Below are positions 23,628 to 25,683 of a stretch of 29,967 nt of DNA, piece by piece. The notes under the pieces were generated by a model, which saw nothing but the letters and a program-made list of their open reading frames with translations, did no database searches and was not told the origin of the DNA. Within the stretch, counting starts at the first letter, position 1. The number at the start of each line of letters is the position of its first letter. The position numbers and the translations under genes are program-made. Source of the stretch: a virus; IMG/VR virus record IMGVR_UViG_3300034167_000091, positions 1 through 29,967 of that record, one strand, 5' to 3'.

Positions 23628-24575
23628 TTAAAAAGGTAATTGTTTTGGTTTTTCAAATGTAACATAATTTCCAGCATAACTCTTTATACCGTTTATTTCT
23701 TCGTAATAACAATTCCTAAACTTATCAAAAAATAAGTCGAATTCTCCTAAATTACCTATTCCTTTAGGCTTTGTCTTTTGTACTATTATTTTAACCTGGT
23801 TAGGTTCGTAAACATTACCAAATTCATCTTTAAAGCCTTTAGGATACCTCCAAACGCAAATCATTTGCTCGCCTTTACGAAATGCCGTTTCTCCTCCGTC
23901 AATGTATCTCGGATCAGCAGGAGGATAATAGCTTATTCCGTCTTGCTCTCTTTTGCTTCCAGTTTCCCTTGCATTGTGCATAATAATAGCGTGATGGTAA
24001 TTATACTTTCTTGAGTACATTCTTATTTTACCTAAAACTCTTGCCATATACATATCCCTTGCTTCTCCGTTTAGTTCGTGCTTAACTTCGTTAAAAGGGT
24101 CAGTAGTAACTGTATCAAATTGAATATTGTATTGCTCTACTGCTTCATAAAAATCCGGTAGTGTTATATCTCTTTCGCCTGTGTCCATTACATAAAAATA
24201 CTCACTTACTTCTTGACCGTATCTAAACATTTCAGCCTGTGTCATTTTTCCTATTCGATTACCATCCAAATCATAAAAAGATTTACCTGACCATTTGTGT
24301 AATATCTCTGCAAAGATTTCCGTTGGTGTTCCTGTTTCGGGACTAAATATTAAATGCTTCCATTTATGTTTTTTTGTTAAAGCTATTAAACACTCCCACC
24401 AAAATTCAGACTTACCACTTCCAGGTGTTCCGTAGATATAAGAAGTTGCACCTTTTTTAAAAGATATTAGGTTGTCCATTTGTGAGAATCCTACGGTAGC
24501 ACCTTTATTTAAACCTTTCTCGTATAGAGTATTAAGGGAATCGGATATATCCGAATATTTGCGTATAAAGTCCAT
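23628..24575 (-). CDS. RecA/DnaB-fold replicative ATPase (helicase-like)
   Basis: 315 aa. Walker A GTPGSGKS at 49-56 and a Walker B-like FDTVTTDPF ending near Asp159. The layout (short N-terminal helix, GFSQMDNLISFKKGATSYIYG, then HHAIIMHNARE with a sensor-type polar end) fits RepA/DnaB-C and KaiC-like hexameric ATPases in phage replication modules. There is no DnaB N-terminal domain, so it is shorter than host DnaB. The C-terminus ends KPKQLPF. The gene starts at the stop of the initiator gene, which argues for joint action at the origin. Confidence 0.82.
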   Translation of the reverse strand: MDFIRKYSDISDSLNTLYEKGLNKGATVGFSQMDNLISFKKGATSYIYGTPGSGKSEFWWECLIALTKKHKWKHLIFSPETGTPTEIFAEILHKWSGKSFYDLDGNRIGKMTQAEMFRYGQEVSEYFYVMDTGERDITLPDFYEAVEQYNIQFDTVTTDPFNEVKHELNGEARDMYMARVLGKIRMYSRKYNYHHAIIMHNARETGSKREQDGISYYPPADPRYIDGGETAFRKGEQMICVWRYPKGFKDEFGNVYEPNQVKIIVQKTKPKGIGNLGEFDLFFDKFRNCYYEEINGIKSYAGNYVTFEKPKQLPF

Positions 24576-25267
24576 TAGTTCATTAATTTAGGGTAAAGAT
24601 GGTATTTTTTCTTTTCATTTTCAGGAGTAAACCAATTCTGCATTGTATTTTTCCAATTGATTACCTGGTTGCCCTTACTATTTTTCCAACCTAAATTAGA
24701 ATAGTAATTAAAGGCTTTAGTTGCTGCTTCTTTTGAATATCCATTTTCATCAAAATAAACTAAAACATCATTTAAAATAGGAGGAATAAAAACTACTTCT
24801 TCTTTTACTTTCCTTTTATTTACTTTACTTTCCTTTACTTTACTTTCCTTTATAGCATTGCCATCGCATTGCGTTCGCATTGCGTTCGCATTCGTGTCGC
24901 ATTGCGTTTCTATATTAACCGCATTTTCAGCCCTTTTTTCCCATCTTTTGCTTGCAGACTGTTTAGCTTTAGTTACTTTATCATTCCTTTCATCCAACCT
25001 TTTTTGTATACTATTGCTACTTACATACCCATCTTTTACTATAAATAAATCAAAGTCATTAATGACCGATTCAATCAATTCAGTTGTGCATCTATAATCA
25101 TAAGCAAGTAAAGATGGATTGTCTTCTAATTTGTTATTGTTGTGGTATAAATCTTCGACTAAAGACCAGTAGACACCATAGCCAAGCATACCTTGAGTAG
25201 CTATTAGCTTTTTAATTTTTATATCGCTCCTGGCGGTATAATCGTGCGAAAAATAAAATGTATTCAT
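24575..25267 (-). CDS. Replication initiator protein (Lin1244/Lin1753-like, DUF4373 N-terminal domain)
   Basis: 230 aa. Residues 1-100 (FYFSHDYTARSDIKIKKLIATQGMLGYGVYWSLVEDLYHNNN) match the winged-helix domain of Lin1244/Lin1753-type proteins found in phage replication modules. Residues 105-160 are a charged linker containing KESKVKESKVNKRKVKEE. Its DNA carries tandem iterons and AT-rich repeats. Residues 165-220 (LVYFDENGYSKEAATKAFNYYSNLGWKNSKGNQVINWKNTMQNWF) look like the C-terminal domain of DnaD/O-type proteins that load helicase. The ATG lies 6 nt after the U-run of a strong terminator hairpin, pointing to attenuation or RNA control of initiator synthesis. Confidence 0.82.
   Translation of the reverse strand: MNTFYFSHDYTARSDIKIKKLIATQGMLGYGVYWSLVEDLYHNNNKLEDNPSLLAYDYRCTTELIESVINDFDLFIVKDGYVSSNSIQKRLDERNDKVTKAKQSASKRWEKRAENAVNIETQCDTNANAMRTQCDGNAIKESKVKESKVNKRKVKEEVVFIPPILNDVLVYFDENGYSKEAATKAFNYYSNLGWKNSKGNQVINWKNTMQNWFTPENEKKKYHLYPKLMN
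24804..24908. other. Putative replication origin inside the initiator gene
   Basis: Five head-to-tail 11-bp iterons occupy 24854-24908: AGCATTGCCAT, CGCATTGCGTT, CGCATTGCGTT, CGCATTCGTGT, CGCATTGCGTT. Next to them lie three copies of the AT-rich 13-mer TTTACTTTCCTTT (24804-24816, 24824-24836, 24839-24851) in a pyrimidine tract. Eleven is not a multiple of three, so the iterons are not explained by a repeated peptide. Iterons beside an AT-rich unwinding region within the initiator gene is the lambda origin plan. Confidence 0.75.
24854..24908. repeat. Five tandem 11-bp iterons
   Basis: Consensus CGCATTGCGTT. Copies 2, 3 and 5 are identical, copy 1 differs at 3 positions and copy 4 at 4. There are no spacers. 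The 11-bp period puts each copy on nearly the same face of the helix, as expected for cooperative initiator binding. GC is locally about 50 percent, in contrast to the surroundings. Confidence 0.85.
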
Positions 25268-25273
25268 TCGAGT

Positions 25274-25314
25274 AAAAAAAAGAAACCCATCGGTAGAGAG
25301 TTACGATAGGTTTC
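25274..25314 (-). terminator. Strong intrinsic terminator just before the initiator start codon
   Basis: In minus-strand RNA, GAAACCUAUCG pairs with CGAUGGGUUUC (11 bp, one U-G) around the loop UAACUCUCUAC, followed by eight U (25274-25281). The AUG of the initiator is 6 nt past the last U. The G-U pair is a mismatch on the plus strand, which fixes orientation. Readthrough or antitermination must occur for this promoter to express the initiator. Confidence 0.88.
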
Positions 25315-25378
25315 AGGTTATAATATAACCATTAGGTAATATCTAACAGGCTCTCTACTTCCTATTAGATACTTAATA
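25274..25378 (-). ncRNA. Structured leader or small RNA with kissing-loop candidate
   Basis: About 105 nt in three hairpins. H1: UAUCUAAUAGG with CCUGUUAGAUA (11 bp, one U-G; 25340-25371), loop AAGUAGAGAG. H2: GGUUAUA with UAUAACC (7 bp; 25316-25330), single-base loop. H3: the 11-bp terminator (25282-25314). H1 loop GUAGAGAG and H3 loop CUCUCUAC are perfectly complementary over 8 nt. Both G-U pairs form only on the minus strand. A TATATTTG promoter box lies directly upstream and eight U end the RNA. It could act as an attenuator of the initiator gene, a free small RNA, or both. I cannot match it to a named family. Confidence 0.75.
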
Positions 25379-25383
25379 CAATG

Positions 25384-25407
25384 CAAATATAACTATTTTC
25401 TTCTTAA
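25384..25407 (-). promoter_or_regulatory. Promoter candidate for the structured RNA and initiator
   Basis: TATATTTG on the minus strand (25384-25391) is a perfect TAnnTTTG box. A TTA lies at the same 24-nt spacing as the TTG of the stronger promoters. The expected start point, about 25377-25379, is only a few bases before hairpin H1. It overlaps the end of the 96-aa HTH gene. Confidence 0.55.
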
Positions 25408-25683
25408 TTTAAAGTATTTTTCTAATCTTAATGTTAAGGCAAATTTGCTTATTCCGTACTTATCAGCATAGTGTTGCATACTTAAGCCATTATCCAGGTA
25501 ATCTGCTAAAAAGATAGGAAATAGCTTATCTGCTCTAACTGTTACCTTTTTTATATGGTTATGCTTTGTCTTAACACCTCTTGCCTTAAATACCTTTCTA
25601 ATATGCTTCTCGGAGATATTATACTTTTTACTTAAGTCTTGAATAGTTATGTTATTTGTTTGGTAATCTTCTATGTAATCCAT
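25393..25683 (-). CDS. Small protein with two HTH-like motifs
   Basis: 96 aa. ITIQDLSKKYNISEKHIRKVFKARGVKT (about 12-39) is a helix-turn-helix of the homeodomain/Hin-resolvase sort. NGLSMQHYADKYGISKFALTLRLEKYFKLRRK (about 65-96) looks like a second one. No catalytic domain is present. A regulator or origin-binding accessory is inferred. It sits between the DUF3127 gene and the initiator leader, with a perfect 6-bp palindrome 20 nt before its start that could be an autoregulatory operator. Confidence 0.65.
   Translation of the reverse strand: MDYIEDYQTNNITIQDLSKKYNISEKHIRKVFKARGVKTKHNHIKKVTVRADKLFPIFLADYLDNGLSMQHYADKYGISKFALTLRLEKYFKLRRK

Follow-up and report, generated by a model that had tools for sequence, protein, structure and literature searches.

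An unnamed RNA leader with kissing loops that probably controls replication in Bacteroidota phages

Introduction

In the ColE1 RNA I/RNA II and R1 CopA/CopT systems, replication is controlled by kissing RNAs that come from opposite strands and whose loops vary between relatives. The pRNA of phage phi29 carries two complementary loops, which pair between molecules and build the packaging ring. The put RNAs of phage HK022 lie in a leader ahead of the early genes and fold into two hairpins; they are not known to have a terminator as a structural half or loop-loop pairing. In pT181-type systems, a leader with an intrinsic terminator and an antiterminator precedes the repC initiator gene, and recognition by a separate antisense RNA proceeds through kissing (PMC4878617).

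Here, a leader was analyzed in a 29,967-nucleotide stretch of viral DNA (positions 1 to 29,967 of the IMG/VR record IMGVR_UViG_3300034167_000091, hereafter the window). Its two complementary loops lie on the same strand, in two hairpins of one predicted transcript directly ahead of a replication initiator gene. We propose that this unnamed RNA switch probably controls phage replication.

Results

Structure of the leader

A sequence-only reading of the window had placed three hairpins in a row on the minus strand, with a promoter box before the first and eight U after the third. Box and U-run were both found (25384-25391 and 25274-25281). The Flavobacterium consensus TAnnTTTG is a -7 element that spans positions -12 to -5 (PMC6847099), and the predicted start site is therefore 25379. 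The elements of the leader are as follows.

25384-25391, minus strand: -7 box TATATTTG, Bacteroidota sigma-A type, read directly
25274-25379, minus strand: predicted leader or terminated small RNA of about 106 nt, as deduced from promoter box and terminator
25338-25373, minus strand: hairpin H1, 11 bp at 25340-25371, extendable to 13 bp, with the loop AA-GUAGAGAG
25351-25358, minus strand: kissing segment of loop 1, GUAGAGAG (DNA GTAGAGAG), read directly and covarying with loop 3
25316-25330, minus strand: hairpin H2, GGUUAU/AUAACC, 6 bp with a 3-nt loop
25282-25314, minus strand: hairpin H3, the putative terminator stem, 11 bp, with the loop UAA-CUCUCUAC
25293-25300, minus strand: kissing segment of loop 3, CUCUCUAC (DNA CTCTCTAC), read directly and covarying
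25274-25281, minus strand: U8 tract, read directly, a predicted intrinsic terminator together with H3

Hairpins of 11, 7 and 11 bp had been claimed. This held for H1 and H3; H2 has only 6 bp in the RNA, because the seventh pair would leave a 1-nt loop. The 8-nt complementarity between loops 1 and 3, GTAGAGAG and CTCTCTAC, was confirmed (99.6% paired in 34 relatives). In the window it consists of eight Watson-Crick pairs, and the unpaired loop bases always lie 5' of each segment. The double role assigned to the third hairpin agrees with H3, which has the form of a terminator with U8 and holds a kissing segment in its loop. Both loop 8-mers are unique to the leader within the window, and in relatives a search for trans targets elsewhere in the phage was unconvincing, without clear enrichment (5 occurrences of the own loop 8-mers in 762 kb versus 23 in 6,092 kb for other loop types). 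The partner loop is therefore the evident target.

Three genes on the same strand adjoin the leader or follow it in the operon.

25393-25683, minus strand: gene of a small HTH-like protein, 96 aa, upstream of the leader; open reading frame with weak HTH/DNA-binding matches
24575-25267, minus strand: replication initiator gene, 230 aa, first behind the leader; Pfam Lin1244_N (E 3e-11) and phrog_2562 (E 9e-26)
23628-24575, minus strand: DnaB-like or AAA ATPase, whose gene comes second in the replication operon; PHROG helicase families, weak Pfam DnaB_C and AAA_25

The family phrog_2562 is annotated as replication initiation protein. The AUG of this Lin1244_N protein (25265-25267, minus strand) stands 6 nt past the U-run, as had been noted, and the spacer reads ACTCGA. 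Since the terminator ends 6 nt ahead of the start codon, there is no space for a second promoter. On the other side, the stop codon of the HTH-like gene lies just ahead of the promoter box. ERF, exonuclease and SSB-like (DUF3127) genes are located upstream in the window.

Folding of the minus-strand leader gave z = -4.5, a value reached by none of 200 shuffles; the plus strand of the region gave z = -2.9. Both H1 and H3 hold conserved wobble pairs (U.G in H1 in 34/34 relatives; U.G and G.U in H3) that can form on the minus strand only. This strand preference had been recognized in the sequence-only reading; it fixes the strand and points to RNA. Together with the fold value and the covariation described below, these pairs uphold its view of a functional minus-strand RNA. 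A detector for a promoter box, a hairpin and a second hairpin with a complementary loop scored 40 at the window leader, compared with a best score of 36 among 300 whole-window shuffles, and no second site in the window scored 28 or more. Matches were obtained in 126 of 266 viral loci (2.2 Mb), compared with a single match after shuffling and 2 matches in bacterial loci (0.64 Mb). Many of the viral loci were chosen for carrying the element, which leaves the rates in shuffled and bacterial sequence as the unbiased ones.

Conservation and covariation in the window family

Searches with the initiator, the HTH protein and the terminator stem gathered 44 distinct RNAs, and the covariation alignment was built from the 34 relatives without indels in the loops. 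Across this alignment 97.6% of all cells were paired. For the kissing helix the value was 99.6%, with 29 two-sided compensatory cells, which count sequences and not independent events. All kissing pairs were Watson-Crick, with no G.U in 272 cells, and a single mismatch in the loop-loop helix was seen in the relative L195. The covariation score of the helix was 0.290 compared with 0.062 after shuffling and at most 0.060 when the partner was slid; sliding by 1-3 bases lowered the paired fraction from 99.6% to 28-53%. In the stems, two-sided compensatory change was found at two pairs of H1 and at one pair of H3, which was 100% paired, and the five outer pairs of H2 were paired in 98.8% of cells. 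Homologous leaders had been named as the place where the sequence-only reading could fail; the compensatory changes present in them favor it instead. The loop-loop contact is well supported by this covariation.

The mean pairwise difference, calculated without a tree, was 0.149 in the kissing loops, 0.096 in H1 and 0.062 in H3. The loop types of the family are GTAGAGAG, GTTGAGAG, GGAGAGAG, GTAGTGAG and GTTGTGAG; in addition, L012/L015 have GTAGTAAG and one subfamily has GTCGAGA(T/A). Every type is matched by its own complement. The promoter box was kept in all aligned relatives (variant TATCTTTG in L171), and the U-run had at least 7 U in all relatives of the family. The consensus fold consisted of three hairpins only. 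An antiterminator between the arms of H2 and H3 (GGUU-AACC pairing) was considered and rejected, as it is broken in relatives carrying GAAUCC, and no conserved alternative antiterminator was present among the folds compared.

At least five downstream proteins were found behind leaders of the window family (MNTFYFSHDYTARSD..., MAHKKDAYYFSHD..., MKYYLHDSNSF..., MSGWIKVHRKL... and MKFLEKDLEDY...), and for each of these five types the start codon lies near the U-run. Loop type GTAGTGAG occurred with all five, loop type being independent of the gene, and HTH proteins 100% identical to that of the window accompanied three loop types. That loop type is tied neither to the downstream gene nor to the HTH protein argues against a DNA site read by a protein and for mutual recognition of the loops. 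In L012, L016, L139, L143, L173 and others, the gene behind the leader has been swapped (at least five proteins) with the leader remaining similar, and a recombination boundary lies at the leader.

Distribution in viral contigs and isolate phages

The same layout, with dissimilar stems, was present in about ten families of viral contigs, usually ahead of replication genes. Contigs found only by loop pattern (L034, L044, L052/L037/L108, L056, L110 and L118/L135) share the layout and have very different stems. With membership set as a sigma-A box, a 5' hairpin, a terminator-like hairpin and loops complementary over at least 7 bases, the class comprises the window, its 44-member family, about ten other families and the isolates described below; H2 is missing from several of the other families. 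Loop pairs of unrelated leaders change in register (GTAGAGAG/CTCTCTAC, GTACGAC/GTCGTAC, ATTGGAA/TTCCAAT and CCGCCAAG/CTTGGCGG). A viral pattern search with two free positions per loop yielded 24 new sites. The free positions were complementary in 17 of them, with 1/16 expected for each (P ~8e-16, which assumes random independent sites, several sites being near relatives). The full layout of promoter, H1 and H3 was present in 16 of these 17 sites and the structure was absent from the seven non-complementary ones.

Genes behind the leaders of the wider class encode initiator-like HTH proteins, BT4734-like/PriCT primase, primase-helicases, helicases and exonuclease-like proteins. Genes of other kinds follow some leaders (L056 and the second leader of phage Freya_1). 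The U-tract behind H3 was poor in about 5 of about 22 compared leaders (L034, L052, L325, L331 and L338), and termination may therefore not be the shared function. In L014, L044, L311 and L321, a single molecule arranged as a straight stack could not hold H1, H2, H3 and the kissing helix together, as by rough estimate the tether covers only 0.64-0.72 of the span; the values are taken from well-parsed leaders because some automatic folds were distorted by tail pairings. With so short a tether, H2 would have to open, the stack to bend or the contact to be intermolecular.

Several contigs showed further features. L325 (IMGVR_UViG_3300020045_002394) has two leaders at ~2003 and ~6344 with the unrelated loops GTAGTGAG and GTGAGACG, each before its own replication-type operon. 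In L037 and L108 the promoter box is TATATTGC instead of TAnnTTTG, which fits the motif TAnnTTGY reported for an alternative sigma factor in F. psychrophilum (PMC9723704). A different RNA was seen on the minus strand of L049 (~935) and L079 (~6104), where a GTAGAGAG hairpin is combined with a terminator that has CTCTCTAC in its loop; its stems compensate between the two contigs, and it does not lie directly ahead of any gene.

Isolate phages were found through their replication proteins. Those of at least six genera, with Flavobacterium, Cellulophaga and Polaribacter as hosts, carry the leader with other loop pairs, in the gap ahead of the replication genes. Among Flavobacterium phages, the loops are GTGAGAAG/CTTCTCAC in morran9-1, GTGAGACG/CGTCTCAC in tooticki6-1, hemulen9-1 and lillamy9-4, GTGGAACG/CGTTCCAC in mumin6-1 and snusmum6-2, and TGAGAGC/GCTCTCA in elemoC_14-1A. 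The Cellulophaga phages phi19:1 and phi10:1 have GTACGAC/GTCGTAC (box TATATTTA in phi10:1), and Nekkels_1, with ATTGGAA/TTCCAAT and a short first hairpin, is a weaker case. The loops of the Polaribacter phages Freya_1 and Danklef_1 are GGTGGAA/TTCCACC. In Freya_1 (L344) this leader lies at ~6203 ahead of the replication genes, and a second one with CCGCCAAG/CTTGGCGG lies at ~2103 ahead of the gene of a beta-lactamase-fold protein. The Muminvirus/Lillamyvirus leader is present in 46 phage records, and the sister leaders of tooticki, mumin and morran show compensated loop changes amid few others. Lysogenic immunity is not the role of the leader in the muminphages, since these have been reported to be strictly lytic (PMC7077304). 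In morran9-1 (L137), the annotated gene morran91_gp042 overlaps the leader (1511-1654) and is probably not a gene. The same locus has an Rfam DUF805b RNA (RF02914, 52 bits) at 192-226 on the plus strand, upstream in the same gene cluster. The leader was not found in the examined stretches of Fpv5, FL-1, phiST, Leeuwenhoekiella phage Arctus_1, a Porphyromonas phage and a faecal contig.

Across the window, the contigs and the isolates, comparison supports the predicted hairpins and the pairing of their loops, the strand of the RNA, its promoter box and terminator, and its place in the genome.

Searches for described relatives

The sequence-only reading knew of no named family with this layout, and the searches concur. 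No Rfam family matched the window at the gathering score, and none matched positions 25200-25450 at E values up to 5; the leaders of 15 other loci were likewise without a match at the gathering score. The comparison included Flavo-1. Literature searches, with subscription journals mostly outside their scope, returned no description of the leader. A phage DNA search with the window leader gave no match. In bacterial genome contigs, the terminator pattern of the window family had 85 matches, none with kissing loops, and those inspected were ordinary terminators or chance matches. A degenerate loop pattern gave no match in 9 and in 397 Flavobacteriaceae genomes, and plasmids gave none with the patterns used. 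With these patterns, the class was thus not found in hosts or prophages.

Discussion

In the reading we favor, to which we assign a probability of roughly 45%, the leader works in cis as a transcription attenuator for the phage replication operon, and the loop-loop contact tunes its terminator. It is favored because any polymerase heading for the initiator, from the leader's own promoter or from farther upstream, has to cross H3 and U8 first. RNA polymerase would start near 25379, and H1 would fold first, at the extreme 5' end. The loop of the emerging H3 would then pair over eight bases with the waiting loop of H1. The H3 stem and U8 would terminate most transcripts and release a compact RNA of about 106 nt, and the read-through fraction would supply the replication initiator and all genes behind it. 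This fraction would be set by the loop-loop contact inside the same nascent RNA; our guess is that the contact helps H3 to fold and favors termination. The location of the leader directly ahead of non-homologous replication genes, in the window family and in the wider class, speaks for an attenuator. Weak U-tracts, tight tethers, the leaders before other genes and the finding of no conserved antiterminator among the folds compared speak against it.

The contact could also be made in trans. Terminated RNA would accumulate with genome number, and its H1 loop would kiss the H3 loop in the nascent leaders of other genomes, or its H3 loop their H1 loop, promoting their termination. Such a built-in antisense would limit replication and could shut off superinfecting phages that share its loop type. 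The kissing loops are the most variable paired element and yet complementary, the near-identical leaders of the sister phages tooticki, mumin and morran differ in compensated loops, L325 and Freya_1 each have two leaders with unrelated loop pairs, and some tethers are tight. A precedent exists in the attenuation of pT181-type rep mRNA, which is started by loop-loop contact to an antisense RNA (PMC4878617). However, an intramolecular contact is strongly favored by local concentration and would prevail in most cases, and drift with compensation also accounts for the variation of the loops. We consider an action in trans somewhat unlikely. That the phage RNA is its own antisense, so that released RNA kisses the nascent leaders of other copies and shuts down their replication operon, we judge unlikely.

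Control of termination might be secondary if the leader served as a stable small RNA in its own right or as a binding site for a protein; kissing would then lock both ends, and the compact RNA would resist decay or bind a phage or host protein. Most members do have a promoter and terminator-like ends, H1 lies near the predicted 5' end in all families and the structure is retained where the U-tract is poor. A role of this kind appears improbable nonetheless, as the place ahead of replication genes is retained despite gene swaps and as the HTH protein, whose identical copies neighbor three loop pairs, is not a loop-specific partner. Antitermination in the manner of HK022 put, with the folded RNA making RNA polymerase ignore this and later terminators, would fit hairpins at the 5' terminus ahead of phage replication genes, followed immediately by a terminator, in phages of which several are lytic (PMC7077304). 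It is very doubtful, given that the loop of the terminator is itself one kissing partner and that no conserved unpaired polymerase-contact motif was seen across families. The least probable reading is a DNA element, in which the initiator or some other protein would recognize the loop sequences as inverted repeats in duplex DNA, at an origin for instance. Strict Watson-Crick complementarity and the adjoining initiator gene would suit it, but the conserved G.U pairs in both flanking stems favor RNA, a same-strand promoter box precedes H1 in nearly every leader, five unrelated downstream proteins share one loop type, and three loop types are found beside identical HTH proteins.

The leader represents an unnamed structured-RNA class with strong covariation in the replication region of Bacteroidota phages, a large group whose gene control is little known. 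Because cultured virulent phages with cultured hosts belong to the class, the mechanism is testable now. Should loop pairing control the initiator, phages would have combined loop-loop control of the plasmid kind with transcription attenuation in a single transcript. As compensated changes can swap one loop pair for another, the leader could also yield many switches that work independently of each other, in a phylum for which genetic parts are scarce. If the RNA is instead its own antisense, it would count genomes and exclude superinfectors of the same loop type, and fast compensated change of the loops would let phages escape each other.

Among known systems, Flavo-1 (RF01705) and other Bacteroidota motifs of Rfam are alike in being structured RNAs of this phylum, without a model match. 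HK022 put shares hairpins in a phage leader and differs by the terminator half and the loop-loop pairing of the RNA described here. From phi29 pRNA the kissing leader is set apart by its place beside replication genes and by its promoter and terminator-like ends. The contacts are similar to those of ColE1 and R1 in length, variability and the tie to replication genes, but in the phage RNA a single strand and a single predicted transcript supply both hairpins. As a working analogue the pT181 type comes closest; it has a leader with an intrinsic terminator directly before the initiator start codon and uses loop-loop recognition. No conserved antisense promoter and, among the folds compared, no conserved antiterminator were found for the phage leader, in contrast to that system. 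On the antisense strand, 23 of 104 loci had a TAnnTTTG box in the 250 nt behind loop 3, and so did 59 of 416 control stretches, which is no clear excess. A further difference is that the phage leader has both complementary loops in the same RNA and carries one of them on the terminator hairpin. We therefore describe it as an unnamed RNA class with both kissing loops in one predicted transcript, of the kind of a leader attenuator with kissing loops.
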